A stretch of DNA of 64,000 nt from Candidatus Gastranaerophilales bacterium. GTDB taxonomy: Bacteria; Cyanobacteriota; Vampirovibrionia; Gastranaerophilales; Gastranaerophilaceae. This document shows, piece after piece, positions 24,264-63,056 of this stretch (positions are counted from its first letter, which is position 1; each line of letters starts with the position of its first letter). The position numbers and the translations under genes are program-made. The notes under the pieces were generated by a model. The model was not told the origin of the DNA. It worked only from the letters and a program-made list of their open reading frames with translations, and did no database searches. The stretch spans positions 1-64,000 of the forward strand of contig JAFYOU010000003.1 of the NCBI GenBank assembly GCA_017560095.1, written 5' to 3'.

Positions 24264-26213
24264 TTAGTTTTCTTTTTCTTTTAAGATTTGTGCCCATTTA
24301 TTTAAATCTCGAATAATTGGTTGCGCTTCTCGCCTTGCTTGAAATTCTGTTTTTGTACGATCAACAATATCTTGCTCCATTCGAGCTTCGACTGCCATTG
24401 CAAGAACTTCTGGCATGTTTAGCGCCCAACCGTCATTTTCCAAATCTCTATAGTAAGCTGCTTCAAAGTTTGGATTCATTCTTAATGTCCAATTATCACC
24501 GCCTGATGTTCCTGGGGTGTTAAATAATCTATCAATACCCAAAACATCCATGAATGTAAATTGTTCATTTTTAGCGCCTGATTTTAATAAATCAGCAACT
24601 TTTGCTTTCCAAAAATCTTTAGGGTTTGTTGCCACTTTTTGCTCTATATCAGCTCTTTTATTGCCTTCTACAGGATGCAATGATTGCGCTAAATATTGAG
24701 GATTCCAGCAGTATTCCCAGTTTTTATATTCGCCAGATTCAATAATTTGTTTTCCTGGTTTGTCATCATGGCAACCAATGTATGCTGTTCCAGCTCTATT
24801 TACATCAGAGCTTTTTGTCCATTTCATACCTGAAATTCCTGGTAAATGAAGTTGCCCTCTAAATATTTTTTGAAATGCCCCAGATTCATCCCAACCTAAG
24901 TCTTCCCAAATAACATCTTGAGGATTGACACCCATTTCTCGCATAGTCGGAAGAACGATTCTGGTTAAAATCTTTTCATAATTATGATTTCTATCTAGAC
25001 CAATATTGCACATTCTGCCAGCATGGAGTCTATTTTTGTCTGGAATTTCAACGCCATTTTGTCTGATTTTATGAACAGTGCTTTCTCTGTAAATATATGG
25101 ATTAACTAAGCCAATAGCATGGTCAATTCTAACACCTTGAGCTCCTGTCATGCCATTAACCAATTTTGCTTTTAAGAATTTACCTGCTGGGCCTAGTGTG
25201 CCATCGTCATTAAATAATTTATTAGGGTCTAAAACAGCCATACCCCAAAGTTGAGGAGAATTCATTGGCCCACCATCTGGACAGCCAATTTTCCAGCCAT
25301 CTAAAAATACATCTTTAAATACAACTTCGTCTAGCGAGCTTGTGCCCACTTCGATATCGCCAATATAAGTAAAATCACCTCTTTTGTTTGCATCAATTTT
25401 AGCTTGTTTGCCAACTAAGAATTGAGCAAATTTATATTGTTCAATAAAATCTGCGTTGTCTTTTTTAATTCCTTCAAAACGTGAAATAGCAAATCTATCG
25501 CCACGTTTAACATCTTGGATTAAGTTTTGATCTTCTTGAGGCCAATATGGATAAAAATCAGTATTATGTTTTTTGGAAATTACATTTAATACAGAATAAT
25601 ATTCAATCCAATCAGCTGAACGTGTTTTAAAAGCTTCAAATTCATCATTTAATCGAAGAGCTTTTTGATCTCTTTGAGCTAATTTTTCTTTAAAATTAGA
25701 ATATGCAACACTTATAAGTTCAGATTTGTTTTCATTAGCTTTTTTAAAGTCGATTCTTGCATAATTTTGCCCGTTTGTTTTGGTTTTTTTGCTAGCTTTT
25801 TCTATATCTTCTTGGCTTAAAATTCCAGCAAAATCGTCTGTTGTTAACATTTGTTCATTGATAAATAATGGATTTTTTTCAAACACAGAAGAAGTATAAG
25901 GAGAGGTATCTCCTTTATTCAATTTGCCATTTGGGCCTAATTGAATTTGATTAAATCCATGAATTTTTGCAAACTCAACAACTCTATCTGCTTCAAATGG
26001 AGAGCCTATTTGTGTGTCATTTCCTTCTGGATTTGCAGGAAAACTTGGCCCATGCAAAATCAAAGCACGGTTTTGAATTCCTAAATAATCAAGCCCTTTT
26101 TCGATAGCTTGAGTGTATTGTTTTTCTTCATTACCCTTTTTAGGTGCACGAGTAAAGGCAACATTTCGACCCATGTTACCACTGGTGATCCTAACAACTT
26201 TTTCTAATCTCAT
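24264..26213 (-). CDS. malQ: 4-alpha-glucanotransferase, GH77 (copy 1)
   Basis: GH77 enzymes disproportionate alpha-1,4-glucans in glycogen and maltodextrin metabolism. The catalytic set is visible: nucleophile Asp364 in VRIDHAIGL, acid/base Glu437 in VIWEDLG and the His482-Asp483 pair in GCHDD, where standard MalQ has THDN. At 649 residues it is longer than typical MalQ (about 500). The extra length lies in residues 110-270 and around 375-410. The N-terminus (VAFTRAPK) carries a motif shared with its paralogue next door. Identity of the two copies looks moderate, so they are an old duplication. Confidence 0.85.
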   Translation of the reverse strand: MRLEKVVRITSGNMGRNVAFTRAPKKGNEEKQYTQAIEKGLDYLGIQNRALILHGPSFPANPEGNDTQIGSPFEADRVVEFAKIHGFNQIQLGPNGKLNKGDTSPYTSSVFEKNPLFINEQMLTTDDFAGILSQEDIEKASKKTKTNGQNYARIDFKKANENKSELISVAYSNFKEKLAQRDQKALRLNDEFEAFKTRSADWIEYYSVLNVISKKHNTDFYPYWPQEDQNLIQDVKRGDRFAISRFEGIKKDNADFIEQYKFAQFLVGKQAKIDANKRGDFTYIGDIEVGTSSLDEVVFKDVFLDGWKIGCPDGGPMNSPQLWGMAVLDPNKLFNDDGTLGPAGKFLKAKLVNGMTGAQGVRIDHAIGLVNPYIYRESTVHKIRQNGVEIPDKNRLHAGRMCNIGLDRNHNYEKILTRIVLPTMREMGVNPQDVIWEDLGWDESGAFQKIFRGQLHLPGISGMKWTKSSDVNRAGTAYIGCHDDKPGKQIIESGEYKNWEYCWNPQYLAQSLHPVEGNKRADIEQKVATNPKDFWKAKVADLLKSGAKNEQFTFMDVLGIDRLFNTPGTSGGDNWTLRMNPNFEAAYYRDLENDGWALNMPEVLAMAVEARMEQDIVDRTKTEFQARREAQPIIRDLNKWAQILKEKEN

Positions 26214-26301: not shown

Positions 26302-28323
26302 TTACTCTTTTTCTTTAAGAACGCCAGCCCATTTATTTAACTCAGCAATAAGCTCTTCGTTTTCTTTAAGGCTTCCTTCCCTAGTAGCTTTCGCACGCAA
26401 TGATTCAGCTACTATTTCAGGAATATTAATTGCCCAACTATCATCTTTTTGAAGCTCACTATAATAATTTTCTTTATAATTTGGAGACAACCTTAAAGTC
26501 CAATTTTGAGCGCCACTTGTTCCTGGAATATTATATCTTTTAGAAATTCCAAATAAATCCATAAAAGATAATTGTATATTTTTTGGCCCTTGAGTAAATA
26601 TATCAACAAGTTTAGCTTTCCAAAGCTTTCTTGGATTAGATATAATTTCTTTTCTATATTGTTCTCTTTTTTTCACTGTTTCATTATCTGAACCAGGATA
26701 GATTCTCTCAGCCAAATATTCCGGATCCCAAGCGCTTTCAGTGGCATCCAATTTTATTTCTTCGCCATTTTTCTTGGCTTCGTTTCTTTTTTCTTCTAAC
26801 ACTTGTATTTTATCTAAAACTTCATTCTCAATGTAACTTCTTGTTGTATCATCATCATGACAACTCATAAGAGCAGTCTTATCACCAAGTTCATCACCCT
26901 TCACCCATTTTGTAGTTGCAAGACCAGATAAACCGAGCTCATCTGCAAATACTTCTGTAAATCTACCAGTTTCATCGCATCCGATGTCTTCCCAAACAAC
27001 ATTTTCAATACTAATTCCAGCTTTTTTTAATGCAGGAATTATAATCTCAGGGATTACTCTTTCAAAATTCTTTCCACCTTCAATACCTTCAAATGGTTCT
27101 TCTTTTGATTTGTATGCAACACGCGTTGATTCTAGTGCTTTTTGATCGACATGTTTTTCACCATTTATATCAACATATTTAACAGTATTAGGATTATAAA
27201 TCCAAGGATTTATTAAGCCTATTGTATGATCTATTCTTATACTTTTAGCACCGGCTAAACCGTTTAAAAGTTTTGCCTCTAAAAACTCACCTGAAGCACC
27301 CAGTGTTCCATCTTCGTTAAATAATTTTTTAGGATCTAAAAGTTTAATACCCCAGAACTGCTGTTCATTATACAACCCACCATCCGGTGCACCAAGACAA
27401 TATCCTTCCAAAAATACATCTCCAAATACAAGTTCATCTAATTTACTCGCACCAACTTCAATGTCACCTATACATAAGAAATCACCTTTTGCTTTTGCAT
27501 CAATTTCTGCCTGTTTTGCCGCAATAAACTGAGTAAATTTATAAAGAGCAATGGCATCTTGATTTTCTTCTTGCATTTGCTTGAATCTTGCAGTTGCGCT
27601 TGCAACACCATTTTTAACATCCCTAATTAAAATTACATCATCTTGATTTTTCCAATTTGGATAATAATCTGTTTCATTATCATTTGCTATAACATTTAAA
27701 ACAGCATAATAATCAATCCAAGATTTATTTTTTTCAAGAAATTTATTGAAATCATCCTTTAGGACTTTGGCTTTAGGGTCATTTGCTTGAAGTTTTTTAT
27801 TGTAGTTTTCAAATGCTTTTTCCAATAATTTTTCATTGCATCTGCGAGCTCTTGTATTGTGTAAAGCTCTTGTATCTAATCTGGAAGTACTAAAAAATGT
27901 TCTGGGGGCTACGGAATTAATTTCTTTTTGAGTAAGAATATTTGCAAATTCTTCACCAACTAACATTTGCGGATTTATCAATAAAGGATTTTTTTCAAAA
28001 ACAGATGATACATATGGCGATCTATCACTTTTATCCAGTTTTCCATTTGGACCAAATTGCATTCCGTTAATGCCATGTAGCGCTAGATCTTGAAATATAT
28101 ATGAATTTCCATAAGGAGTACCGATTCCAAAATCTCTTCCTTCTATATCAGCAGGAATGCTTGGAGCATGCATTCCTATAACAAAATTTTCAATCCCCAG
28201 TTGACGCAAACCTGATTGAATCGTATGACTATATTGTCTTTCTTCATCTTTTCTGATAGCACGAGCAAAAGCAACTTGGCTTCTTGCAATTTCTCCCATT
28301 CCAGCAACACTGGTTAATCTCAT
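26302..28323 (-). CDS. malQ: 4-alpha-glucanotransferase, GH77 (copy 2)
   Basis: This is a paralogue of the following gene with the same layout: Asp365 in IRIDHTIGL, Glu445 in VVWEDIG and His489-Asp490 in SCHDDD. Its 673 residues include an extra helical insert near 500-525 that is rich in Lys/Glu. The N-terminus reads VAFARAIRKDEERQY, parallel to VAFTRAPKKGNEEKQY in copy 1. GGGA lies before the ATG. The gap to copy 1 is 88 bases without a clear terminator, so both may be on one transcript. Different substrate chain lengths for the two enzymes are possible but not shown by sequence. Confidence 0.85.
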   Translation of the reverse strand: MRLTSVAGMGEIARSQVAFARAIRKDEERQYSHTIQSGLRQLGIENFVIGMHAPSIPADIEGRDFGIGTPYGNSYIFQDLALHGINGMQFGPNGKLDKSDRSPYVSSVFEKNPLLINPQMLVGEEFANILTQKEINSVAPRTFFSTSRLDTRALHNTRARRCNEKLLEKAFENYNKKLQANDPKAKVLKDDFNKFLEKNKSWIDYYAVLNVIANDNETDYYPNWKNQDDVILIRDVKNGVASATARFKQMQEENQDAIALYKFTQFIAAKQAEIDAKAKGDFLCIGDIEVGASKLDELVFGDVFLEGYCLGAPDGGLYNEQQFWGIKLLDPKKLFNEDGTLGASGEFLEAKLLNGLAGAKSIRIDHTIGLINPWIYNPNTVKYVDINGEKHVDQKALESTRVAYKSKEEPFEGIEGGKNFERVIPEIIIPALKKAGISIENVVWEDIGCDETGRFTEVFADELGLSGLATTKWVKGDELGDKTALMSCHDDDTTRSYIENEVLDKIQVLEEKRNEAKKNGEEIKLDATESAWDPEYLAERIYPGSDNETVKKREQYRKEIISNPRKLWKAKLVDIFTQGPKNIQLSFMDLFGISKRYNIPGTSGAQNWTLRLSPNYKENYYSELQKDDSWAINIPEIVAESLRAKATREGSLKENEELIAELNKWAGVLKEKE

Positions 28324-42247: not shown

Positions 42248-45200
42248 TTATTTTAAATATTTATCTAAAATAGTTTGTTTTTTAGCAGGGATTTCATCTA
42301 TTTCCTTTTGTAATTCCTCTATTTGTTTTTCGTATACTTCTATTTTTTTTATAAATTGGTCTTGAATATCAAGATTTGGAACTGATATCAATTTATTATG
42401 TATTGTTTTTCTATTTACGCCTCCAGGACCAAGACCGATATTTAATTCATTTAAATTTAAAGATTTCAATAAATAAAAAGCATATTTTAACCTTATTTTC
42501 TCTTTATTAATGACAACATAAAATGTAGTATCAATTGGCGTACAATTATTTTTTATATAATGAATCTTACCAACAGAACCTTTTCTTCCAACTATAATGC
42601 TAGGTCCTTTTAGTAAATATTCGTCATGTAACCCAACAACTCCACTAGACCCTACTACGGGGAACATGCCTTCATTACGTTCTCGTTCAGGTAATGCAAT
42701 TCCATATTCCAATTTTAAATATTTACTTAATTTTATCTGTTTATTATCATCTATGTCTTTATTAAATAATGTTTGTATTTCTTTATTTATAGAGTTGATT
42801 TTATCTGTTTTATCAATGTATGAATATTCAATATCTGTAATTTCTTTATACATATCTTCAAGTATTTTTGAGTTTTGTATATCAGGTACTCTAAAATTTT
42901 TGACAGATATGGGTTTTATCGTTGGATAATCAGATATATTTGATTTTAAATTTGACATTTTAAAAGAATTAAATATCTCGTACAAATATTTTCTTATATA
43001 CTTATTTTTATGATAAATTCCTATTAAATGATTCGTTATATACGAATCTGTTTGTAAAAAGCCAATATTATTGGTATCAATTGAACGTCCACTTATCGGA
43101 AAAACTATTGTATCTTTTGGCATCATAATTAAATTATGATTATCTATAGCAAGTTTATTAACAAAACTATCTGCATCTGGAATTATATAGAATTTCTCAT
43201 CAATAGAATTTAAATTACCTGCTCTAATAAAAGGGATATCACCATTTTCAAAATATTCTTTACCTTGAGGTGCATTATTCCCTTTTTGGATATATATGTC
43301 TTTAATATTTTTTAGCTTAATAAGAGGATACCTTGTTTCAATTTTTATTTTTTTTTTACTTTGCAAACTTATGTTTGCGTTAAATTCTATTGAATTATAA
43401 TCAAATAAAGAATTTAAATTACTAAAGAAAATGTTGTTTTTTAAACATTTTTCCATATTGCATAGATCGGTATCGGATATTTTTTCTGTAAAATTTTTAT
43501 ATATATAGTAATTTATTTTTGTATTATCAAATAAATCATTAGGATTATATAACTTTGAATTAATAGTGCTTCTATTAGTATATGTATCCAATTCTTTAAT
43601 GATTTTATCAGATAATTCTTTTAAACCTTCGTCTCCTTTCCTTTTGGAAAATTTATATCCTAAAAAATTTGCAATTTCATCCTTATTCTTTCCTGCGTGG
43701 ACTATAATTGTCTTTACATCTTCATTTAATAAATAATTGTATAATTTCTTAAGTTCGGTTTTTACCAAGCTACTCAGGTCAATATTGTCTTTCCCTGTAG
43801 ATATATCATTAATAAGATTCTTTAATTTTTCTATTTCCTTTGAATTTGTTTTCTTTTCTATGGAACTTTCTATATTGGTAATAATGTCATCAAGGTACTC
43901 TTCATACAAATCAGATTGCTTAAATTTGTCAGTTAAATTTCCTGTAAACATAGATATATAATCTTTAAAATCAAGATCATTATAGTTTTCTTTTAAATAT
44001 TGAGAAATAATTTTAGACTTGTTATTAAAATTAATATCTTCAGGATTCTTTTTGAATTTAGAAATTATATTTTTTATACGTTCAATATCGTTTAGTTTAC
44101 GCTTTTCCATAAATAAAACAACAGTATTTGTGCCTGTTGCCATAAAAGCCCCTGAACCAAGTTCTACAATTCCTTTTATCTTAAAATTTTCCAAAATTAA
44201 TTCTCTTGTTTTTTGGTGAATTCCAGGATTGGTTAAAAATGTATTAGATATAACAATAGCTGCATATCCGCCTTCTTTTACCAATTGTTTTGTCCTTTCC
44301 ATAAATAAACATTCTATGTCATCGGAATTTGTACCAAGATCTTTGAATAATGAAAAATTTTTCTCTCCATAAGGTTCTTCATTTGTCTTCTTTAGAGTTT
44401 CTTTAAAGTCTTGTACAGAATATGGCGGATTTGCAATTACGCAATCGAAAACTGGATTATCCTTATTATATTTGTCTACTTGGTTATTATCTTGATATAA
44501 TATAGTATTTTGAAAAATTTCACTGTCAAAACTATCTAAACCATTTCCTGTAATAATGTTTGCATCACCATCACCATTAAGGAAACACGCAATTTTAGAG
44601 GTTTTTGTTAATCGATAGTCTTTTTCAATTCCATATACAAATTCTTCTGCCCACTTATACTGATTATCTGCCCATTTCTTTAAATTTTGTACTTGTAAAT
44701 TTGTTTTCATATCCTTTTGAGAATATTTACTTAATATAGGTTCTATCCTGTGCATATATTCGGTTATGAAATGCCCTGCACCACAAGCATAATCAATCAT
44801 ATATGGTAAAAACTTGTCATCATTATTGTCAATTTTATTATTGATAATATTTTCAAAAGGAATAGAATTAACTATAAAATTTGCAATAGGTATAGGTGTA
44901 AAGAATTGTCCTTCTGTTTGTTTAATACCTATATTTAATAATCTTTCAAAGAAATCACCCAAGAACTGTTGCTTGTCAGTATATTTTATTCTGACTTTTT
45001 CAAATAATTTTACTACTGCTTTAAGTATTAAAGAGTTTTGTTTAAATGTCTCCATATTAAATACTTCGATAAAAGCAAACTCATTATTTTTAATAAAACG
45101 TAGTTCATTAAATTCTCGTATCAGTTCTTGACATAAATCCTTGTTTTCTGCAGATAGCTTTTCTATGTTTTCAATAAATTTATCCTTAGAATAATCTGTA

Positions 45201-46120
45201 ACATCAATTCTTAAGTACTTTTCAATGCCTTCTTTATATAAATTTGAAAGTCTGCCTAAGACATCATAACTAGTATCTTCTTTTTTCCATTGAAATTGTA
45301 TTTTATACTCATTATCAGAATATAATTTATCTTCATCTACAATTTTACAGAGAAATAAATTAAACAGCTTATTGTATGCATTAGTTAAATCAGAAACAGC
45401 AAATTTTCTTAATATTCTAGCAAAACCATTATATAATTTCTTATCTTCAGACAACGACTTTAATTGATCCTTTGTTATGCCAATAGAATTAGCACCATAT
45501 AAATAGTCGAAAATGCCAGAGTTTGTATATTCTTTATTCCATTTATTAAAAATATCTTTTTTGTCAGACCCTTCAAAATCAGAAGTATCTATAATACAAT
45601 AATTTGATTCTATTTTCCCATTGAATAGCCTTGATGAATATAAACAAATTGCTTTTACGGCTCTATCGTTTGTAAAATATGTAAATAATTGTCCCCCATT
45701 GTCATTTAATTTTTTATATTCCTCTTCGTATGCATTACCATATTGTTTGCATTCAATCATATAAAAAGGAAGCCCTTCTTTTGTAATTAAAATGTCAAGA
45801 TATTGACCTTTTTCTTTTCCGCCACTTGGATAATCCTTTTCTATAATAATTTCTTTAGGAGAATATCCTTTTGTGATTAATCTATCTATACATTCCAAAA
45901 CTACAAATGTCTCTTTTTGGTGAAGATTTTGTGTAGTTGCTCTTCCGTATTTAATATCATCACCATAATTGATAATAGATTTTGTAATATCATCTTCATT
46001 TAATTTTAATGTTATTTCGTAATTATTAAAATTTGCATAAGTTTTACTATATATTAAGTCAGACTCGCCATCCTTTAATGTAAAACCAATAGCTTCTAAA
46101 AAGTTTTTAATGTTATCCAT
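42248..46120 (-). CDS. single-chain restriction-modification enzyme (nuclease-methylase-specificity fusion, type IIG/I-like)
   Basis: This 1290-residue protein combines all three restriction-modification activities. An HsdR-like N-terminal nuclease of the PD-(D/E)xK type has Asp109 and Glu123-x-Lys125 (ECK), with Gln144 further on. A gamma-type N6-adenine methylase follows with GQFFTP (404-409), motif I as DYACGAGHF (443-451, Ala-Gly for the usual Ser-Gly) and motif IV NPPY (564-567). A helical connector follows, then two HsdS-like target-recognition domains (about 930-1100 and 1120-1265) separated and ended by helical conserved regions. It would methylate and cut one asymmetric or bipartite site. 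No separate methylase or specificity gene is present. AAAGGATGG lies before the ATG. Confidence 0.88.
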   Translation of the reverse strand: MDNIKNFLEAIGFTLKDGESDLIYSKTYANFNNYEITLKLNEDDITKSIINYGDDIKYGRATTQNLHQKETFVVLECIDRLITKGYSPKEIIIEKDYPSGGKEKGQYLDILITKEGLPFYMIECKQYGNAYEEEYKKLNDNGGQLFTYFTNDRAVKAICLYSSRLFNGKIESNYCIIDTSDFEGSDKKDIFNKWNKEYTNSGIFDYLYGANSIGITKDQLKSLSEDKKLYNGFARILRKFAVSDLTNAYNKLFNLFLCKIVDEDKLYSDNEYKIQFQWKKEDTSYDVLGRLSNLYKEGIEKYLRIDVTDYSKDKFIENIEKLSAENKDLCQELIREFNELRFIKNNEFAFIEVFNMETFKQNSLILKAVVKLFEKVRIKYTDKQQFLGDFFERLLNIGIKQTEGQFFTPIPIANFIVNSIPFENIINNKIDNNDDKFLPYMIDYACGAGHFITEYMHRIEPILSKYSQKDMKTNLQVQNLKKWADNQYKWAEEFVYGIEKDYRLTKTSKIACFLNGDGDANIITGNGLDSFDSEIFQNTILYQDNNQVDKYNKDNPVFDCVIANPPYSVQDFKETLKKTNEEPYGEKNFSLFKDLGTNSDDIECLFMERTKQLVKEGGYAAIVISNTFLTNPGIHQKTRELILENFKIKGIVELGSGAFMATGTNTVVLFMEKRKLNDIERIKNIISKFKKNPEDINFNNKSKIISQYLKENYNDLDFKDYISMFTGNLTDKFKQSDLYEEYLDDIITNIESSIEKKTNSKEIEKLKNLINDISTGKDNIDLSSLVKTELKKLYNYLLNEDVKTIIVHAGKNKDEIANFLGYKFSKRKGDEGLKELSDKIIKELDTYTNRSTINSKLYNPNDLFDNTKINYYIYKNFTEKISDTDLCNMEKCLKNNIFFSNLNSLFDYNSIEFNANISLQSKKKIKIETRYPLIKLKNIKDIYIQKGNNAPQGKEYFENGDIPFIRAGNLNSIDEKFYIIPDADSFVNKLAIDNHNLIMMPKDTIVFPISGRSIDTNNIGFLQTDSYITNHLIGIYHKNKYIRKYLYEIFNSFKMSNLKSNISDYPTIKPISVKNFRVPDIQNSKILEDMYKEITDIEYSYIDKTDKINSINKEIQTLFNKDIDDNKQIKLSKYLKLEYGIALPERERNEGMFPVVGSSGVVGLHDEYLLKGPSIIVGRKGSVGKIHYIKNNCTPIDTTFYVVINKEKIRLKYAFYLLKSLNLNELNIGLGPGGVNRKTIHNKLISVPNLDIQDQFIKKIEVYEKQIEELQKEIDEIPAKKQTILDKYLK

Positions 46121-49958: not shown

Positions 49959-52040
49959 TTAATAGCCATCACCAATTGTATCAATTGCTTCAACTCTGAT
50001 ATCAGTTATAAGCTCAGAATAAGATATAACTACAATTGTTGGAATATGACGTTCTAACATTTGATATAACGGCAATCTTATTCTTGGAGAACAAAGAATA
50101 ACGGGTTGAACGCCAACCGCACTTTGAGCTCGCATCAAAGTAGTTGCCGTTGTTTCGATTAACTCTTGAACCTGCATAGGATTTAATAAGAACATTGTAC
50201 CAAGTTCTGTTCTTTGACAAGAATCATCAAGAATCTTTTCCCACTCAGAAGATAATGTAAGAGCATATAAAACCTTATCTTTATTTGAATTAGATAAACA
50301 TATCTGCCTACCCAAAGCAGCTCTTAAACGTTCCGATAAGATATCCGGTTCTTTTGAAAAACGAGCATAATCGCAAAGTCTTTCAAAAATGAAAATTACA
50401 TCTTTAATAGAAACTTTTTCTCTAATTAAATTAACAAAAATCTTTCTTAAATCTGACGTTGAAATAATCGTTGGAACAAGGTCATTAACTAATGTTGGGT
50501 CTTGAGATTTAACAAGCTCCATTAATTTTAAAACATCAGTTTTAGTCATAACTTCATCAACATATTTTCTAACGCATTCTTGCAGATGAGTTACAATAAC
50601 ATCAACGGCATCAACTGCTTGAATTTTATCATTTTTACCAATGTGCTGAGGATTAAGCCAATAAGCTTGAGATTGGAAAGTCGGTTCAATTGAAACAATA
50701 GCATTATCAGGCAATTTTTTACCCAAAGCTTCATACTGATCCGCAATAACCATTAATTTTCCAGGGTAAACTGTTCCCGTTGCAACAGGATTCCCACGAA
50801 TAGAAATTAAATATTCATTATCTCCAATTGCAGAAGAATCCATAATTCTAATATTTGGAATAATATAACCTAAATCATCGGTTACTCTTTGACGAAGTGC
50901 TGCAATTTTAGCCAATAATTGCCCATCTTGCTCAGGGTCTGCAATAACCAATAAGCCTGCGCCAACTTGCAAAGACAAAACATCAACCCCAAGACGTTCA
51001 TACATTTTATTAGGATTAACTAAATCTTGCATATTTTGCTTAACCGCATCCAATTGGCCAAGTTGTTGTTGCACATCTTGATTTACCAACACAGATAAAC
51101 CACCTAAAATTAAAATTGTAGAAAATAACAAAAATGGAAGCCAAGGCAATCCTGTGATTCCAGAAGTTACCGCAATTAAAAGCAAAAAACCTGCAGCCAA
51201 AAATAAACTTGTTGGTTTTGATAAAACTTGAACAGCCAAATCTGAACCCAAAGCAACACCACCACCCGTTGCGCGAGTCATTACAATACCAGATGAAATA
51301 GCCATTAAAAGCGATGGAACTTGAGAAGCTAAACCATCACCAATAGTTAAAATAGTATATTTAGAAACCGCATCTCCTGGTTGCATGCCATTCATTAAAA
51401 TACCAATAATTAAACCGCCGATAATATTAATTAAAGTAATAATGATACCTGCAATAGTATCACCTTTTACGAATTTCATTGCACCATCCATAGAACCATA
51501 TAAGCTTGATTCCCTTTGAAGATCTTCACGACGCTTAACTGCTTCTTCAGGTGAAATTAAACCAGCGTTAAAATCAGCATCAATTGTCATTTGTTTACCA
51601 GGCATCGCATCAAGCGCAAAACGAGCAGATACTTCAGCAATACGCTCAGCACCTTTAGTAATTACCATAAATTGAACAATGGTGATAATTAAGAAAATTA
51701 CACCACCAACAACCATATTACCACCAGTAACAAACTGTCCAAACGCTTCTACAACTTCACCAGCATCACCCTTAGCCAAGATTAAACGAGTTGAAGCAAT
51801 TGAAAGTACAAGCCTAAAAACAGTACCAATCAAAAGAATTGAAGGGAAAGCTGCCAATTCAAGGGGCTTATTAACATATAAAGATATCATTAATAAAACA
51901 ATACCTAATGTAATATTGAAACTTATCGAAAAATTTACAACCCAACTTGGCATTTCTAATAGCAAAATTAAAATTGCCACAATAACAAAACCGGCTAATG
52001 CAATTTCCGATATTGGATTACTTGGCTTTGGAGCGTTCAT
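49959..52040 (-). CDS. flhA: flagellar export apparatus protein FlhA
   Basis: FlhA is the large export-gate subunit of the flagellar type III system. The 693-residue protein has eight N-terminal membrane helices (about 14-310). The FHIPEP-type cytoplasmic loop has the family's RVAEVSARFALDAMPGKQM consensus in the form ERIAEVSARFALDAMPGKQM (about 132-151), followed by DADFNAG. A cytoplasmic domain of about 360 residues binds substrates and chaperones. It overlaps the fliH stop by one base. There is no fliI between them. Confidence 0.96.
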   Translation of the reverse strand: MNAPKPSNPISEIALAGFVIVAILILLLEMPSWVVNFSISFNITLGIVLLMISLYVNKPLELAAFPSILLIGTVFRLVLSIASTRLILAKGDAGEVVEAFGQFVTGGNMVVGGVIFLIITIVQFMVITKGAERIAEVSARFALDAMPGKQMTIDADFNAGLISPEEAVKRREDLQRESSLYGSMDGAMKFVKGDTIAGIIITLINIIGGLIIGILMNGMQPGDAVSKYTILTIGDGLASQVPSLLMAISSGIVMTRATGGGVALGSDLAVQVLSKPTSLFLAAGFLLLIAVTSGITGLPWLPFLLFSTILILGGLSVLVNQDVQQQLGQLDAVKQNMQDLVNPNKMYERLGVDVLSLQVGAGLLVIADPEQDGQLLAKIAALRQRVTDDLGYIIPNIRIMDSSAIGDNEYLISIRGNPVATGTVYPGKLMVIADQYEALGKKLPDNAIVSIEPTFQSQAYWLNPQHIGKNDKIQAVDAVDVIVTHLQECVRKYVDEVMTKTDVLKLMELVKSQDPTLVNDLVPTIISTSDLRKIFVNLIREKVSIKDVIFIFERLCDYARFSKEPDILSERLRAALGRQICLSNSNKDKVLYALTLSSEWEKILDDSCQRTELGTMFLLNPMQVQELIETTATTLMRAQSAVGVQPVILCSPRIRLPLYQMLERHIPTIVVISYSELITDIRVEAIDTIGDGY

Positions 52041-52843
52041 TACAACCCTCCTTTATAAATTCCAAAAGCATTTTGCAAAACAGCCAATTGCGTTTTAAAA
52101 TTAGCATCAATTACGCCATTATTTGCCAAAACCGCGCAACTTCCTTTTTCGATTGTTTCATCAGGAGTTACAATTATTCTTACATTTAATTTTTTATCTT
52201 CTAGAATTTCAGGCAAAGATGCATTAGCAAATTCAACATCATCAGGATTTACTTTAACTTCAAGCCTTTGAGCATCAGAATTAATATTATCAAGAACTTC
52301 TGAGAATATATTTTTTAATACATCATCGCTCATTTCTGTTTCTTTTTTAATGATTCTTTTTGCAATTGCAAACGCAATTTCCATAATATGAGGATAAAAT
52401 TCATCATACATAGCATCCTTCATATTAAAGAATTCAACTAGCTTTGATTTCATCTCCTCGAGTTGCTGTTGAGCTTCTGAAAAACCATTTTTGTATCCTT
52501 CACGAGCTGCAAGCTCTTTAATTGTATGCGCCTCTTGTTGCGCACGAGATACTAATGATCTTTCATCAATTCTGCGATAACCTCTTCTTCTATCTCCCCT
52601 TCTTCTTTCCGCGCGTTCTTTAAATTCAATTGCAGAAATATCTATCTTTTCAAAACTTTCATCCTCGGAAACATTTTGCTCAGGCAATTTAACAGGAAGA
52701 ATATTTTCTTTATTTTCGTTAGTATTTTTAGTGTTTTCTACATCTAAAATTACATCTTCTTTTTTAATTACACTACCTTTTTTTACAGGTTGCAAAGAAG
52801 ATGAACTTTTTTTATTTGGAATATTTTTTTTTCTAATAATCAT
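52040..52843 (-). CDS. fliH: flagellar assembly protein FliH
   Basis: A 267-residue FliH/SctL-family protein that links the export ATPase to the C-ring and gate. The N-terminal 80 residues are low-complexity with a very basic run (ERAERRRGDRRRGYRR, about 76-91). A coiled coil follows (about 100-140). The conserved C-terminal domain has the usual IAFAIAKRIIKKE and a VRIIVTPDETIEKGSC segment. It overlaps fliG by 4 bases and flhA by one. Its ATPase partner FliI is not coded in this window. Confidence 0.87.
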   Translation of the reverse strand: MIIRKKNIPNKKSSSSLQPVKKGSVIKKEDVILDVENTKNTNENKENILPVKLPEQNVSEDESFEKIDISAIEFKERAERRRGDRRRGYRRIDERSLVSRAQQEAHTIKELAAREGYKNGFSEAQQQLEEMKSKLVEFFNMKDAMYDEFYPHIMEIAFAIAKRIIKKETEMSDDVLKNIFSEVLDNINSDAQRLEVKVNPDDVEFANASLPEILEDKKLNVRIIVTPDETIEKGSCAVLANNGVIDANFKTQLAVLQNAFGIYKGGL

Positions 52844-53793
52844 GAAGCGTGTTCTTCTAAATATTTAGAGACTATATCTGCAATATGTGCAGGAATTTTC
52901 TTTTTATTTTTCGTATAACAGCTATTTACGAAATCCTTTATTGCTGGCCTTTCTTTATTTATGATAGTCAAAATTCTTTCTCTAGACGAATTTTTAACAA
53001 TTTTACACATTTTTTTAAATGCTTTATCATAACTTATTACAATTGCTTCAGGTAATGCGCTCTTCATTTCTTCAAAACAACGTATTGTCGTAGAAGTATC
53101 AAGCTTTTCTTCTAAATCAGGCATTTTTAAATATTTCATCAAAACATCACGTTCTGGTTTATCAAATTTTTGAAGAATATTTTTGATTTTTTCCGTTGGA
53201 AAGCCTTTCATCAAAACAGCCAAAGATGCCAACTTAATTACCTTTGAATCACTCATCGAAGCAATATCGATAGCCGTTTCTTCTTCAATTTGTTCCATTG
53301 CCATAGAATCAATATTTGATTGCGAAAGGGCATTATCAGCAACTTGCTGAGTTAAAATACCTCTCTCTTTTAAATCTTCCATAGCTTTTGTAAAACACTT
53401 TTTAACCTGTGCTTCAACCAATGAAATTAATTGATCTTGAGGTAAATCATTCTCTACAGCTTTTTTGGCAATATCAAACACAGTAAAAGCAACTTTTTGC
53501 AAAATTGCTTCACGATATTGCATATCAACTCCAGCTCTTATAATATCAATGGATTTATGAAAAATCCATTCACCTATAAATTGCGTAATCAAGCTCGCTT
53601 GAGATGCATTCAATTTAGAATTTTCTTCATTTAAAAGCGCATCCCCTGCCATTTTACAAAAACGAAAAATAAGTTCAATAACAAAATCTTTATCGGGTTT
53701 TTGAATGTCAGAAGGCACAACTTGACTAGCTTGAGATGATAAATCTTTAGCAAAAGCGTCACAATTAAAATTTTTCAAATCAGATTCAGCCAT
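52840..53793 (-). CDS. fliG: flagellar motor switch protein FliG
   Basis: The C-ring protein that converts stator action into torque. It has 317 residues, near the usual 330. It has an N-terminal domain for FliF binding, a middle domain around LKMPDLEEKLDTS and a C-terminal domain with charged helices (ERILTIINKERPAIKDFV). Compared with typical FliG it is diverged at the N-terminus; the 'EHPQ' motif is not obvious. Identification rests partly on position between fliF and fliH. Confidence 0.75.
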   Translation of the reverse strand: MAESDLKNFNCDAFAKDLSSQASQVVPSDIQKPDKDFVIELIFRFCKMAGDALLNEENSKLNASQASLITQFIGEWIFHKSIDIIRAGVDMQYREAILQKVAFTVFDIAKKAVENDLPQDQLISLVEAQVKKCFTKAMEDLKERGILTQQVADNALSQSNIDSMAMEQIEEETAIDIASMSDSKVIKLASLAVLMKGFPTEKIKNILQKFDKPERDVLMKYLKMPDLEEKLDTSTTIRCFEEMKSALPEAIVISYDKAFKKMCKIVKNSSRERILTIINKERPAIKDFVNSCYTKNKKKIPAHIADIVSKYLEEHAS

Positions 53794-53815
53794 TCTTCCC
53801 CTTTATTCCCCGTTT

Positions 53816-55558
53816 TTATGTGCTTTCAATCCAATTTTTAATTTTTTCAATTGCTTCATTCTCATCCATTGAATTAAAATCAGACTCCAATTCATCAATA
53901 GCATCAATCAAATCACTTCTTGGTGCAGATGTTTTAGCGCTTGCCATTGATTTTGCCTGTTCTAGCGCTAATGCATATTGATTTTTTTGTTCAATTAAAT
54001 TTTGAGCCATTTTTTCTTGTTGAGCAATTAAAGTATTGGCCTGAGCAGAAACATCTTTTAATTGTTGCTCTTGAGTTGCCGCAATTTGTCTTAAATATTC
54101 AAGTTCTTCTTCTTGTTTTTGGGCTTCTTTTTTAACCTTTTTACCAATATGACTTAAACCAAAAATCAAACCTACTAAAAGTATAGCCCCAACAACCCAC
54201 CAAGGATTTCCTGATTCTTCAGGTTTTGGTAGTTCATTTTCTTTATCCGGAGCTAAAATCAAACTATTAGATTCAACAAATGCAATCGAAACATTGTCAG
54301 GATTAACCTTTGGACTTGCAGCATGTGCAATTAAAGTTTTTAATTCATATAAGCTCATATTTGTTGGAATTGCATTTTCATCAATTGAAACTGCAATTGA
54401 AATTTTTTCAATAATTCCAGCAGACATATATTCATTTACTTGTGTTTTAGAAACTCCATATTGAGTTTCAACGGCACTTCTTGAATATTGCCTATCTTGA
54501 GAAGACGAGCCAGTTTGAACAGATGATTTAATTCCATTTGGAACATATACGCTAACAGGAGCCATACCAGATGTTGTAGCATTATTGTTATTATCGCCCA
54601 AATTTTCTTTAAAATGTTGCTCTGAAACTGATGTTTTTTGATTTGGGTCATATAAAATACTTGTTTTTTCAACTGGCGATTGAGTTAAAAATGTTGAAAC
54701 AGTTGCAATATAGTTGCCTTTACCAATTAATTTATCTAATTGAGCACTAACTTTAGATTGCATGTATTTATCATTTTCTTCAATTTTAGCTATAGCATCG
54801 TCAGAAGCCCCAATAATTGAATTATAGACGGTTCCATTTGTATCCGTTATTGAAATATTATCCGCTTGAAGCCCATGAACAGCGCCCAACAAAAGATTAG
54901 AAATTGCTTTGATTTTCATATTATCCAATCTTTCACCGGATGGCATTGTTATTTGAACAGTTGCTGTTATTGGCTTTTGATTTTGAGCAAAGAAAGTTTG
55001 TTCCGGAATTGAAATAAACACTTGGGCATTTTCAATTGGTGGAATTTTTCTAATTAATCTAGCTAATTCTCCATTAATTGCTCTTATTAATCTAATTTTC
55101 TTGTCATCTTTTGTTGATGTAAAATCACCTTTATCAAAAATCTCAAGCCCTGTATGTTCATCCAACATACCGCTTTTAACGATAGCTAAAAGCGCTCTAT
55201 CTACTTGACCTTTTGTAATTTTGTCTTGCTTTGACAATAAAAGAGTAATCTTTGAGCCAGTACTTGCTTTTTTAGTTTTAATGCCACTTCTAGCTAATAA
55301 CGCTTGAACTTCTAAAGCTTTTCCAATACTTTCCGTTGTAAACAATTCAATATCTTGTTCTATCGTTTGACTATCACTATTGTTAAATTCTTCAAGAACA
55401 GCTTCATTTGCACCAGAAACTACATTTTTATTTGAATTAACTTTAATACCTATTCCAATCAAAGAAATAGTAAACACCACAGTCACTATCAATAAAGCAA
55501 TGATAGTGAAAAATAAAGGTTTATTTTCAGTTATTTGTTTTAGGTCAAATTTTTCCAT
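53816..55558 (-). CDS. fliF: flagellar MS-ring protein FliF
   Basis: A 580-residue membrane ring protein. There are helices at about 14-38 and 452-470. Between them lie the YscJ/FliF ring-building motif region (EVQALLARSGIKTKKA and ALLAIVKSGMLDEHTGLEIFD) and the PPIENAQVFISIPEQTFF segment. The cytoplasmic tail (475-580) is a Gln-rich coiled coil ending in an acidic FliG-binding helix with a final KNWIEST. Confidence 0.95.
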   Translation of the reverse strand: MEKFDLKQITENKPLFFTIIALLIVTVVFTISLIGIGIKVNSNKNVVSGANEAVLEEFNNSDSQTIEQDIELFTTESIGKALEVQALLARSGIKTKKASTGSKITLLLSKQDKITKGQVDRALLAIVKSGMLDEHTGLEIFDKGDFTSTKDDKKIRLIRAINGELARLIRKIPPIENAQVFISIPEQTFFAQNQKPITATVQITMPSGERLDNMKIKAISNLLLGAVHGLQADNISITDTNGTVYNSIIGASDDAIAKIEENDKYMQSKVSAQLDKLIGKGNYIATVSTFLTQSPVEKTSILYDPNQKTSVSEQHFKENLGDNNNNATTSGMAPVSVYVPNGIKSSVQTGSSSQDRQYSRSAVETQYGVSKTQVNEYMSAGIIEKISIAVSIDENAIPTNMSLYELKTLIAHAASPKVNPDNVSIAFVESNSLILAPDKENELPKPEESGNPWWVVGAILLVGLIFGLSHIGKKVKKEAQKQEEELEYLRQIAATQEQQLKDVSAQANTLIAQQEKMAQNLIEQKNQYALALEQAKSMASAKTSAPRSDLIDAIDELESDFNSMDENEAIEKIKNWIEST

Positions 55559-55613
55559 ATTGCGTGATGTTCTATACTTCCAATTATACTATCATAATCA
55601 GCTAAAATTAAAG

Positions 55614-55937
55614 TTAAATCTGAATCTGCATGATTTTTTCATACGTTTGTAGGATTTTTCCTGTAACCGTAGTCGCAGCTTGAACAGTTAATTCGCTTTG
55701 AGCAATAGCTGACATAACTTCATGAATATCTGCTTTGCCTTGCATTGCAGCTGCTGCTACTTGCTCAGGTTTATTTGTAATTTCATTCATTTGACTAATC
55801 ATTTCACCAAATGTATCTTTAAAGCTTTTAATATTTGTATCATTTGAATTTATTGAAATATTTCCATTTAAGCGCATCGTGGGCATTTCATTAATACCGT
55901 GCATTTCAAAAAAATTCATTTTGTTAATCTTATTCAT
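55614..55937 (-). CDS. fliE: flagellar hook-basal body protein FliE
   Basis: A 107-residue rod adaptor between the MS ring and the rod. The family signature lies in the second half: DIHEVMSAIAQSELTVQAA, then a VTGKILQTYEKIMQI end. AAGGA lies 8 bases before the ATG. It is between the transglycosylase and fliF genes, as is common for fliE-fliF. Confidence 0.93.
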   Translation of the reverse strand: MNKINKMNFFEMHGINEMPTMRLNGNISINSNDTNIKSFKDTFGEMISQMNEITNKPEQVAAAAMQGKADIHEVMSAIAQSELTVQAATTVTGKILQTYEKIMQIQI

Positions 55938-58213: not shown

Positions 58214-60079
58214 TTATTCTTCCTCTTGATTGTCAATTTTTGCCATTTCTTTATCTTGAAATGGTGTATCCTTTTCCATTTTAACTCTTGTAATTTTAAT
58301 ATTATCAAGTTCTAAAATTGTGTATTTTATATTTTTATCTTCAACAACATCGTTTAATTCAGGTTCTCTTCCCAACAAACCAAATACATATCCACCAATT
58401 GTTTGGAAATCTTCATTTGGAATATCTTGGTCAAATCTTTCATTAAAATCATCAATACTTGCTTTAGCTGCAACGCTTAAAGTATTATCGTCAATTTTAA
58501 CTATTTCAGGTGTTTCTACTTTATCAAATTCATCGTATATTTCACCTGTAATTTCCTCAATAATATCTTCAATAGTAACAATACCAACTATTCCACCATG
58601 CTCATCCATTACTGCTGCAATTTGATTTTTAGATGAAGTTAAATCTGATAATAAATCCGAAATAAATTTATTTTCAGGAACTATTGTTATATCTCTCACT
58701 ATTGATTTAATTGAGAAATTTTCATCTACATTATTATTCTTAATAACTTTTAAGACATCTTTTGCATTAATTACACCTAAAATATTATCAACATTATCTT
58801 CATATAAAGGCAATCTTGTGTGACCTGAATTAATGATAATGTCTGCTATTTCATAAATTGAACTATTTGCATCTGCAAAAACAATTTCTGTTCTTGGAAC
58901 CATTACTTCTTTAACAACAGTATTTGCAAAAGAATAAAAATTTGAAAGCATATTTGCTTCATGTGAATCAATTGCTTCAATTTTTTGACCTTCTACAATT
59001 AACTTATCAAATTTTTCTTCCCAATTATCTTCTTCATCATGTGCTTGCAATTCAATTGTTACATCATTTACGTTTTTGATATATTTTCTAATTTTTCGCT
59101 CTAACATTTGAGCAATATCATCAGCATCCTTCATTTGAGTTTCAGGGTCGACTTCAATATTCATATTAATTACAACACCAGTTGAACCAAGGTCAATTGT
59201 TTTCAATTCAACAACTTGAGTAATTCCGTGGATTGTAGAAGCTACATTCCTAATTATTTCTTCAACTCGAGGTTCTGCTGATTGAACAGTTAAAGAATTA
59301 ACATTATTTTTAAGCAAGAAAAATGCTAAATATAAAAGAATGCAACCAATTATAATAGATGCTATAGCATCAGGGATATGTGCTAAAGCTATTGGCATAA
59401 CAAATTTGGATAAAGTTAGTGCAACAAGAGCAATTAACACCCCTAAAAACGCAGCTGTATCTTCATACCAAACAAATTTTGTTGTTGGAGATTGGATGTT
59501 TTTAATATGTTTTAAAGAAACAAAAAATCTTTTTAGTGGATTTTTTTCTTTAACCTGTGCTTCATCTAAAACTGCGACAACTGCACTGTTTACTGCCCAC
59601 GCTTCAAAACACATACTAATTAAAAGGGCAATTGCGATATAGTTATAATTTTTAAGCATTTCATCCATTCCATGTGGATTAAAGAATTTTTCTCCACCAT
59701 GGAAAATTGCAACACCAGAACCTAAAAGCATTAATAAAGAAGCTAACATTGTCCAAATATTCGCCTCTAATCCATAACCAAAAGGATGTGCACTATCCGC
59801 AGGGCGCGCACCTCTTTTAACTCCAATCCATAAACAAATGCTATTAAATGAATCAACGCCAGAGTGAATTGCTTCAGCTAACATTGCAGAGCTTCGAGAA
59901 ACAAAAAAGCAAATTAGTTTAACTAATGCTATCCCGATATTAGCTAAAAACGCTCTAATAATTGCTTTATGTTTTAAATTATTTTCTTTATCTTTATTTT
60001 CGTTTATCGCTTCAACGATATTTTGATTATCCGTAATATCAATGCCTTGTTGGGTTATACCCTGCTCAGAAGATGACAT
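58214..60079 (-). CDS. fusion of a cation-diffusion-facilitator transporter with CBS pair and CorC/HlyC domain
   Basis: I start at 60079 because GGGAG lies 4 bases before that ATG; an in-frame ATG at 60100 precedes the ribosome site. In the 621-residue product, residues about 39-265 form a CDF (SLC30-like) domain with metal ligands in HSGVD (His72, Asp76) and EDTAA (about 206-210), similar to the ZnT9 subgroup, followed by a CDF C-terminal domain (to about 345). A CBS pair (about 391-505; HTRLPLYED, MDEHGGIVGIVT) and a CorC_HlyC transporter-associated domain (about 520-605) come next. Usually CBS-CorC follows a DUF21 membrane domain; here a CDF replaces it. Probably a cation transporter regulated by nucleotides through the CBS pair. 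Confidence 0.85.
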   Translation of the reverse strand: MSSSEQGITQQGIDITDNQNIVEAINENKDKENNLKHKAIIRAFLANIGIALVKLICFFVSRSSAMLAEAIHSGVDSFNSICLWIGVKRGARPADSAHPFGYGLEANIWTMLASLLMLLGSGVAIFHGGEKFFNPHGMDEMLKNYNYIAIALLISMCFEAWAVNSAVVAVLDEAQVKEKNPLKRFFVSLKHIKNIQSPTTKFVWYEDTAAFLGVLIALVALTLSKFVMPIALAHIPDAIASIIIGCILLYLAFFLLKNNVNSLTVQSAEPRVEEIIRNVASTIHGITQVVELKTIDLGSTGVVINMNIEVDPETQMKDADDIAQMLERKIRKYIKNVNDVTIELQAHDEEDNWEEKFDKLIVEGQKIEAIDSHEANMLSNFYSFANTVVKEVMVPRTEIVFADANSSIYEIADIIINSGHTRLPLYEDNVDNILGVINAKDVLKVIKNNNVDENFSIKSIVRDITIVPENKFISDLLSDLTSSKNQIAAVMDEHGGIVGIVTIEDIIEEITGEIYDEFDKVETPEIVKIDDNTLSVAAKASIDDFNERFDQDIPNEDFQTIGGYVFGLLGREPELNDVVEDKNIKYTILELDNIKITRVKMEKDTPFQDKEMAKIDNQEEE

Positions 60080-60149
60080 ATTACTCCCTATTATATTCAT
60101 AATTAATATCTTATATGATACTCACAAAAAGCGTTTTTTGCAATAAAAA

Positions 60150-61493
60150 TTAATACGTTTGATCACAAATTTTATCCCTAAAATGTTTATCTAAAAATTC
60201 ATAAGCATTGTCAAAGCCATTTTCTTTACCATCTATAAAAATTGCACCAATTAATGCTTCAAACATATCAGCCGGTCTTTTATTGGCTTGAGTCTCATTT
60301 CTATTAATAGCATAATCTGGAAGTTTCATTTCTTTAGCCAAGGAAACCAGATTTTCATTTCTAGTAAAATAATGTCTTTTAGGACAAATTTCCCTTCTAG
60401 TAGCATTTGGAAGATTATTTTGCAAAATTTCATGAACACAAAATCCCAAAACAGCATCGCCAACATATTCTAACGTTTCGTAAGTATCGCAATGAGCTAG
60501 TGTCGAGCCATCTTCCATTTCTCCATATAAAAATGCTTTGTGCAAAAGTGAAATATCACTAAATTCTAAACCCCACTTTTGGCAAAAATCTTTTAGTTCT
60601 TCGACTCTTTGCCCTGTTGGTTTTTTATAATTTATATATGTTAAATCTTCGCCCGCTTCATCAAAATTAATTTCACCTGATTCAATTTTTTCAATTGCGT
60701 CAGCTATACAACCCTCTCTAAGCCCATGGCCACACTTGCCACCACGTGCCTCTGATAAAACCAAATCTTTAAAATGAACCTTATAATGCCATTGCTCATT
60801 ATAAAATCTTGTTTCTTGGTATAAGTCTTTCCAAGAATATCCCTTTTGCTCAACAATATTGGCCAATTTTTCAAAAGGACTTTCTTCTAAAATCAGACCT
60901 TCTGGATAAATCCCTTTGCCAATTTTTTCATTTAAAAAATCAAAAGCAACCTTAAAGCCATCTTCATTTTCATAAATTATTGCACCCAAAAAAGCATTCA
61001 AACAATCCGCTTGAGCACTTTGAGTTAAACTCTTATTTTCTGATTGCGGAAGTAGATTTTGCGGAATAAAATTATTTATTATTCTTGATTTATTTTTACG
61101 TTTAATAAAATCAGCTACTATATCTGTCAATTCGCCTTCGTCTTTAATTGGATAATCTTTATGCAAAAGACATCTAGAATAAAGCTCAAAAAACTTACTT
61201 CCTGTTTTTGAATATTTTAAATATGTACCCTCTTTTTCCAATGGAGGAGTTAAAACAAAATCAAGCGTTTGAGGCTGAATTGGAAGAGAATTTTCTTTAA
61301 TTACATCTTGCAATAAAGCTTCTTTTTGTTGCATTTGTCTATTTGCACCAAAAAGAATTTGATTTTTTAGCGCCAAAGAAGCATTTAAACTAAGCAAGTT
61401 TATCTGCGCATAACTTCTTTGCTCTTTATTTTTGCTTTTTAAAAGAGCTAAATTACAATTATTAAAATTTATCTGATTTATTGTTAAGTTCAT
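60150..61493 (-). CDS. tandem RNase III protein: dead RNase III domain, dsRBD-like segment, active RNase III domain
   Basis: The 447-residue protein has three parts. Residues about 85-192 align with an RNase III domain: LKYSKTGSKF stands where LEFLGDAVL belongs, then YPIKDEGELTDIVADFI and ADCLNAFLGAI. Lys93, Thr97 and Asn166 replace three of the four catalytic acids. Residues about 204-274 resemble a divergent dsRNA-binding domain, ending GHGLREGCIADAIEKI. Residues 312-443 form a complete RNase III domain with Glu342 and Asp346 (YETLEYVGDAV) and Asp409 and Glu412 (PADMFEAL). Ordinary bacterial RNase III is about 230 residues with the dsRBD last. The first 60 residues carry the lineage motif (QINFN, ILFGANRQ). 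Whether this is the cell's only RNase III cannot be seen. Confidence 0.8.
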   Translation of the reverse strand: MNLTINQINFNNCNLALLKSKNKEQRSYAQINLLSLNASLALKNQILFGANRQMQQKEALLQDVIKENSLPIQPQTLDFVLTPPLEKEGTYLKYSKTGSKFFELYSRCLLHKDYPIKDEGELTDIVADFIKRKNKSRIINNFIPQNLLPQSENKSLTQSAQADCLNAFLGAIIYENEDGFKVAFDFLNEKIGKGIYPEGLILEESPFEKLANIVEQKGYSWKDLYQETRFYNEQWHYKVHFKDLVLSEARGGKCGHGLREGCIADAIEKIESGEINFDEAGEDLTYINYKKPTGQRVEELKDFCQKWGLEFSDISLLHKAFLYGEMEDGSTLAHCDTYETLEYVGDAVLGFCVHEILQNNLPNATRREICPKRHYFTRNENLVSLAKEMKLPDYAINRNETQANKRPADMFEALIGAIFIDGKENGFDNAYEFLDKHFRDKICDQTY

Positions 61494-61538: not shown

Positions 61539-63056
61539 TTAAAAACTTCTCATTTGAAGAGCTTGTGCTATATGAGATAGCTCAATTTTTTCTTTTTCAT
61601 CTAAATCTGCAATAGTTCTTGAAATTTTCAAAATTCTATCGTACGCTCTAGCCGATAAATTAAATTGACTAATGGCATTTTTTAAAAATTGTTTAGTCGC
61701 ATCATCTATTGCACAATATTTTTTTATTAATTTTGTTGTTAATTCGCTATTTGTTAAAATGTCATCATTTTTATATCTTTCAAATTGAATTTTTCTTGCT
61801 TTTATTACTCTTTGCCTAATAACAGCAGAACTTTCAGCTTCGATATTATTTGACAAAAGTTCATCTTCATTTAATCTTTGAACTTTTAATTGAATATCGA
61901 TTCTATCCAATAATGGACCAGAAAGTCGGGATTTATAGCGATTAATCATTGCTTCAGAACAAGTGCATCTTTTTTTGTTGTCTCCTAAAAATCCACAAGG
62001 ACAAGGATTCATTGCTCCAACTAAAATAAAATTTGCAGGATATTGAACACTTATTTGGGCACGAGAAATAGTTACAACATTATCTTCAATAGGTTGTCTT
62101 AAAACTTCTAAAGTAGTACGTGGAAATTCAACCATTTCATCCAAAAAGAGAACACCTCTGTGCGCCAAAGTAATTTCCCCAGGTTTAGGATTAGAACCTC
62201 CGCCAATTATTCCAACCGCAGAAGCGCTATGATGAGGGGAGCGAAACGGTCGAGTGGTAATTAGTGGATTTTTTCTATCTAACAATCCAGAAATTGAATA
62301 AATTTTAGTTAGCTCAATTGCTTCTTTTGCTGTTAATGGCGGCAAAATTGACATAAATGCTTTAGATAACATTGTCTTCCCAGAACCGGGTGAACCCGAC
62401 ATTAAAACATTATGTGCACCAGCTGCAGCAATTTCCAATGCTCGCTTTGCAACAGCCTGTCCTTTAACATGAAAAAAATCAACCGCAAAATCTTGCTCTT
62501 GAGAAATAAAATCTTCGATATTTTGCTTTAATTTTTTAAGCTCACAATTGCCATTTAAATATTCAACAATTTGAGATAAATTATCAGCCCCGAGAGTTTC
62601 GATATTTTCGATAAAGCTTGCTTCTTCTAGATTGGCTGAAGGCAAAATTACTTTTTTAAAGCCCAACTCTTCCAATCCACAAACTATAGGCAAAATTCCA
62701 TTAACTGCACGAATTGAACCATCTAAAGATAACTCACCCAAAAATGCAATCTTATCAGAATTAAATTCTTTGATTACTCCTTCTTTGAGCAAAATCCCAA
62801 TTGCCATAGCAAGATCATAACTTGAACCTTCTTTTTTAAGATCAGCCGGCGCAAGATTAATTACAACTTTTGTTGAAGGAAAACTATAGCCGGAATTTTT
62901 AATTGCTAATCTTAATCTTTCTTTTGCTTCCGATATTGCAGTATCGCCAAGCCCAATAATGGAAACCTGAGGAATAGAATTAATTGTATCCACTTCAATA
63001 TTTATTTCATAAACATTTAAACCGATGATAGTAGCACTTTTTGTGGTGACAACCAT
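61539..63056 (-). CDS. comM: YifB/ComM-family Mg-chelatase-like ATPase
   Basis: A 505-residue AAA+ protein. ComM is a branch-migration helicase used in natural transformation and recombination. Domains: N-terminal Lon-like ChlI fold (1-165, with LGELSLDGSIRAVNG), Walker A GSPGSGKT (221-228), Walker B LFLDEM followed by LRQPIED, a cysteine cluster CPCGFLGDNKKRCTC typical of the family, and the C-terminal Mg-chelatase helical domain. It overlaps the TPR gene stop by one base. Confidence 0.95.
   Translation of the reverse strand: MVVTTKSATIIGLNVYEINIEVDTINSIPQVSIIGLGDTAISEAKERLRLAIKNSGYSFPSTKVVINLAPADLKKEGSSYDLAMAIGILLKEGVIKEFNSDKIAFLGELSLDGSIRAVNGILPIVCGLEELGFKKVILPSANLEEASFIENIETLGADNLSQIVEYLNGNCELKKLKQNIEDFISQEQDFAVDFFHVKGQAVAKRALEIAAAGAHNVLMSGSPGSGKTMLSKAFMSILPPLTAKEAIELTKIYSISGLLDRKNPLITTRPFRSPHHSASAVGIIGGGSNPKPGEITLAHRGVLFLDEMVEFPRTTLEVLRQPIEDNVVTISRAQISVQYPANFILVGAMNPCPCGFLGDNKKRCTCSEAMINRYKSRLSGPLLDRIDIQLKVQRLNEDELLSNNIEAESSAVIRQRVIKARKIQFERYKNDDILTNSELTTKLIKKYCAIDDATKQFLKNAISQFNLSARAYDRILKISRTIADLDEKEKIELSHIAQALQMRSF

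Follow-up and report, generated by a model that had tools for sequence, protein, structure and literature searches.

A tandem RNase III gene and its domain layout

The window analysed here is a 64,000-nucleotide stretch from a Candidatus Gastranaerophilales bacterium (assembly GCA_017560095.1, contig JAFYOU010000003.1, positions 1 to 64,000), and on its minus strand, at 60150..61493, lies a gene for a 447-residue protein with two RNase III domains. The frame is open from an ATG start, and relatives exist. From the N-terminus, the chain passes through a tail, a catalytically dead RNase III domain (RIIIDa), a domain with the fold of a double-stranded RNA-binding domain (dsRBD), and a complete RNase III domain (RIIIDb). 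The gene starts 45 bases downstream of a comM-like Mg-chelatase gene (61539..63056) and is followed after 49 bases by a gene whose product joins a cation-diffusion (CDF) transporter to CBS/CorC domains (58214..60100); both neighbours were assigned by Pfam, and both lie on the minus strand. The source genome (2.07 Mb; completeness 98.7%, contamination 7.07%) also carries an ordinary rnc, separate from the tandem gene.

The presence of two RNase III domains in one chain, proposed in a sequence-only reading of the window, is borne out. RIIIDa (residues 74-195; 60909..61274, minus strand) matches TIGR02191 with an E value of 1.5e-5, is also identified as RNase III by profile comparison, and in a decoy test 8 of 9 copies scored above the best of 1000 decoys. 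RIIIDb (residues 296-441; 60171..60608, minus strand) is recognized by Pfam and TIGR02191; the TIGR02191 score of the window protein, 98.7 bits, is below the cut-off of 166.25. Between the two, residues 203-274 (60672..60887, minus strand) have a dsRBD fold according to profile comparison and model matching, in agreement with the proposed position of a dsRBD-like part. The chain terminates after RIIIDb without a C-terminal dsRBD, and the Pfam scan of the protein returned no zinc finger domain and, at E values up to 10, no helicase or PAZ family.

The N-terminal tail (residues 1-55; 61329..61493, minus strand) contains a KNQILF motif, and its residues 1-45 have a predicted local distance difference test score (pLDDT) below 50. 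Nine of the 29 genus genomes together contain 14 matches to the tail pattern (a control pattern gave 4), and RNase III genes account for 7 of these. The remaining 7 do not resemble N-terminal tails, and the idea of a general export signal was dropped. A looser N-terminal motif, picked after the family had been seen and with a count inflated by that family, occurs 18 times in 10,240 N-terminal residues and 11 times in 34,369 residues elsewhere.

Active sites, predicted structure and proposed mechanism

The catalytic acids were located by E. coli RNase III numbering (E41, D45, D114 and E117), with RIIIDa aligned on RIIIDb. RIIIDb has equivalents of all four, namely Glu342 and Asp346 in the first motif (60456..60470, minus strand) and Asp409 and Glu412 in the second (60258..60269, minus strand), the same residues that had been picked out earlier. 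In RIIIDa, the four positions are occupied by Ser95 and Ser99 (61197..61211, minus strand), Asp163, which is kept, and Asn166 (60996..61007, minus strand), and three of the four acids are lost. The sequence-only reading was right about this loss and about Asp163 and Asn166, but it had placed the first two lost sites two residues early, at Lys93 and Thr97. Across the seven multi-domain proteins of the family, at least three acids are missing from RIIIDa in 9 of 9 cases; in the two 888-residue proteins (from genomes G311 and G229), in which the RIIIDa-dsRBD-RIIIDb unit occurs twice to give four RNase III domains, the internal RIIIDb has likewise lost three acids (2/2), whereas the last RIIIDb of each chain retains all four (7/7). 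The signature dimer glycine, which is Gly98 between the two serines of the window RIIIDa, is present in all 22 domains from tandem, fusion and stand-alone dead genes and in all 50 rnc domains.

A separate observation concerns the ordinary enzyme. In Gastranaerophilales rnc (e.g., L078:4262-4990), all 50 distinct rnc domains from the family have Cys as the Asp114 equivalent, as do all 12 from other families of the order; elsewhere in the phylum, frames caught by motif have Ser, Asn or Asp there. The terminal RIIIDb domains carry Asp at this position, unlike Gastranaerophilales rnc.

The protein is probably a single-chain RNase III pseudo-dimer with one active site that cuts one strand of double-stranded RNA (dsRNA). 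RIIIDa, although dead, would retain its dimer interface, pair with RIIIDb of the same chain and serve as the half that helps to hold the RNA; the dsRBD and both halves would grip dsRNA, and RIIIDb would cut it. One active site per chain would then lead to a nick in one strand. E. coli RNase III heterodimers are, by title, the subject of two studies cited in PMC9508840. In the trypanosome RNA-editing endonucleases, competent and incompetent RNase III proteins are paired, the catalytic KREN1-3 with the non-catalytic KREPB6-8 of the editosome, and each pair is thought to cut one strand (PMC9508840); the glycine of the dead domain is required for association (PMC5770545). Like these pairs, the window protein combines a catalytic RNase III domain with a non-catalytic one, whose pairing here is modelled only; it differs from them in that the trypanosome domains lie on separate chains with zinc fingers, whereas here a single chain includes a dsRBD fold.

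Structure prediction was the check suggested for pseudo-dimer packing. A full-length AlphaFold2 model (3-row alignment, pLDDT 76) superposes on Drosha and Dicer over both RNase III domains (298 residues, root mean square deviation 6.3-6.5), while RIIIDa without RIIIDb was modelled poorly. Two chains might instead pair RIIIDb with RIIIDb (and RIIIDa with RIIIDa), which would give two active sites and ordinary double cuts and leave RIIIDa as a scaffold. This arrangement is unlikely, since in the full-length model the two domains of a single chain are placed as they are in Dicer and Drosha, and RIIIDa retains the dimer glycine. Several points nevertheless weigh against the single-chain pseudo-dimer, and the possibility that two chains join through RIIIDb and cut both strands is one of them. 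In addition, the model was built on three sequences only, its deviation from Drosha and Dicer is as large as given above, and the Foldseek TM-scores do not exceed 0.43 by query length; RIIIDa plus the dsRBD, modelled without RIIIDb, reached a mean pLDDT of 55.5, with RIIIDa mostly below 50. Finally, helix 2 of a dsRBD follows a KKxAK rule, and the middle domain, inspected by eye, is without the usual lysine pair of this helix, which makes RNA binding by this domain unsure.

Distribution, evolution and genomic setting of the family

Relatives were sought with query P0002 in 286 genomes of the order, where members are those among the matches listed, and by an alignment search of the 29 genus genomes. 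The seven multi-domain genes belong to three of these 29: one in the window genome (G000), three in G229, and three adjacent genes for proteins of 888, 466 and 444 residues in G311. All 29 also contain a frame like that of an ordinary rnc; the same architecture and a separate rnc were what the sequence-only reading had proposed to look for in related genomes. That the tandem gene exists beside an ordinary rnc points to an accessory and specialised role for its enzyme. G229 is the same assembly as L003 (P0002 match 100%), that is, Candidatus Gastranaerophilales RGIG1837 from goat cecum. Where the window has its tandem gene, this genome has one of 66% identity and, directly before it, a second gene of 462 residues from the first ATG (476 from a TTG) whose product shares 32% identity with the window protein. 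Genes for a dead RNase III domain that stands alone, again with the tail, were found in G311 (298 residues) and in G196 and G314 (215 residues each). In G238, a 488-residue fusion (L071:6430-7896) has the reverse order, with a complete RNase III domain, a dead domain and a C-terminal part; the latter looked like a dsRBD by eye, a likeness that found no support in hhalign (probability 0.1 against the rnc dsRBD and 7.0 against the middle domain), and its fold is unclear.

Beyond the genus, no match to the N-terminal half was found in 145 other genomes, nor in 382 genomes of the class at a threshold of 1e-24, which very diverged copies could escape. Of 44 loci checked in a 59-genome sample of the phylum, 43 have a frame with a single RNase III domain, and the second stretch of the remaining locus, L155, scored only 7.0 bits. 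An exact-seed scan of 84,980 species, a type of scan that distant relatives escape, returned one relative, L003. A phage origin was considered and set aside: PHROG 28637 matches only RIIIDb, and the matches of 7 phage records are confined to query residues 291-447. The plasmid search gave 17 records, each covering less than 80% of the query; the matches begin at residue 207 in 4 rows from Azospirillum and at residue 295 or later in the other 13.

The four genomes nearest to the window genome by CDF protein identity are G229 (93%), G311 (88%), G196 (85%) and G314 (84%), and all of them carry tailed RNase III genes, which suggests that the bearers of such genes form one clade. The CDF-CBS/CorC gene itself is present in 27 of the 29 genus genomes. 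In 2 of the 27 CDF loci (G196 and G314), comM and the CDF gene adjoin so closely that no other gene would fit, which makes this an empty site; in the window and L003 it is occupied by the tandem gene or genes; in the remaining CDF loci, comM does not lie within the roughly 1.5 kb examined. The clusters of larger genes in G311 and G229 sit away from the comM-CDF site. In trees of Gastranaerophilales sequences, the RIIIDa domains all fall into one clade (100/99) and the RIIIDb domains all into a second (99/96). The grouping of RIIIDa with the stand-alone dead domains has a support of only 84/72, and a single clade of RIIIDa plus RIIIDb is not rejected (p-AU 0.257). The tree fits one fusion followed by unit duplication, although its long branches call for caution.

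Every part of the tandem gene is constrained, yet its rate of evolution is four to five times that of the neighbouring genes: against L003, omega is 0.20 for the whole gene (RIIIDa 0.26, middle domain 0.15, RIIIDb 0.14, tail 0.31) and 0.05 for comM, CDF and gpsA. Fast evolution together with clade-limited duplication suggests that the RNA target changes. The same rate, the confinement to few genomes and the roughly 7% contamination of the window assembly could also be taken as signs of a functionless, decaying duplication product or an assembly artefact. Such an origin is hardly credible, as the frame is open at 66% identity in the same place of another assembly, omega is well below 1 in each part, and seven related genes have a common pattern of dead and complete domains. 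The stand-alone dead genes with the same tail would suit a regulator that binds RNA or pairs with the ordinary RNase III, with catalysis minor or lost in practice. However, retention of the acids in the terminal domain of all seven proteins, while the other domains lost them, indicates kept catalysis, and a regulator of this kind is quite improbable.

A role as processing enzyme in guide-RNA defence, either CRISPR (clustered regularly interspaced short palindromic repeats) with Cas9 or prokaryotic Argonaute, is disfavoured and very improbable. Cas9 systems do use ordinary RNase III (Table 1 of PMC5303251), but the Cas9 model matches 3 of the 29 genus genomes (G021, G238 and G299), none of which is a tandem carrier (G000, G229 and G311), and the Piwi model gives one match under the cut-off, in G021. 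PADLOC assigned no family to the window protein or the G311 888-residue protein; one weak 35-residue match (E 0.0043) to the G229 888-residue protein was its whole yield, and a known defence family was rejected as the identity.

Elsewhere in the window, an Rfam scan gave tRNA as its sole match. Two neighbouring 4-alpha-glucanotransferase (GH77) genes with N-terminal extensions lie at 24264-26213 and 26302-28323, and a 306-residue protein encoded at 11911-12831 has a NUMOD-like domain of homing endonucleases. The 1290-residue protein encoded at 42248-46120 combines N6-methylase, Eco57I-type and type I specificity domains and, by these Pfam domains, is a putative single-chain restriction-modification enzyme. 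A run of genes at 49959-55937 resembles flagellar export and motor genes, presumably FlhA, FliF, FliG, FliH and FliE.

Relation to known RNase III enzymes and wider meaning

The layout resembles the Dicer/Drosha core with one half dead. There are two RNase III domains per chain, as in Dicer and Drosha, where they dimerize intramolecularly (PMC10328071). The differences are that one domain is dead here, a dsRBD fold lies between the two, and the protein is bacterial with four-domain relatives. As a statement of membership, the term "Dicer-like" of the sequence-only reading fails because no helicase or PAZ family is matched, a single site is complete and the dsRBD does not lie at an end of the chain. 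Its remark that known tandem RNase III proteins are eukaryotic agrees with a review that states that bacteria and archaea have no Dicer ortholog (PMC5303251).

With bacterial RNase III, the protein shares the RIIIDb match to TIGR02191, and RIIIDa plus the middle domain repeats the rnc domain order; the second RNase III domain, the missing C-terminal dsRBD and the TIGR02191 score under the cut-off set it apart. Similarly, it resembles Mini-III in having an RNase III domain without a C-terminal dsRBD, but it has two such domains and a dsRBD fold, whereas Mini-III is a single RNase III domain (PMC10989914). A further likeness is to the mitoribosomal protein mL44 (RNase III-like plus dsRBD): PF22935 matches RIIIDa of the G311 444-residue protein and the window RIIIDb, the latter at 20.9 bits, below the curated cut-off of 27. 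The best structural matches of the dsRBD-domain model are mitoribosome chains, which we take to be mL44.

Each domain by itself is known. What is apparently new, within the literature searched, is how the domains are arranged, along with the one-site rule and chains of four domains; that search found no bacterial tandem RNase III and had most subscription papers outside its reach. On balance, the evidence tilts slightly toward the view that a strand-selective dsRNA nickase, in the form of a single-chain RNase III whose dead partner is built in, arose independently of eukaryotes in one clade of Gastranaerophilales, where it was multiplied into four-domain chains with one active site and accompanied by dead stand-alone partners. 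Such a nickase would be a useful reagent, and a small soluble protein makes it testable how a dead RNase III domain steers an active one. Bacterial RNase III has been sorted into two kinds, the homodimeric enzyme with one RNase III domain and a dsRBD, and Mini-III (PMC10989914). RIIIDa-dsRBD-RIIIDb is a third bacterial layout and offers a natural example of the way in which RNase III domains can become fused.
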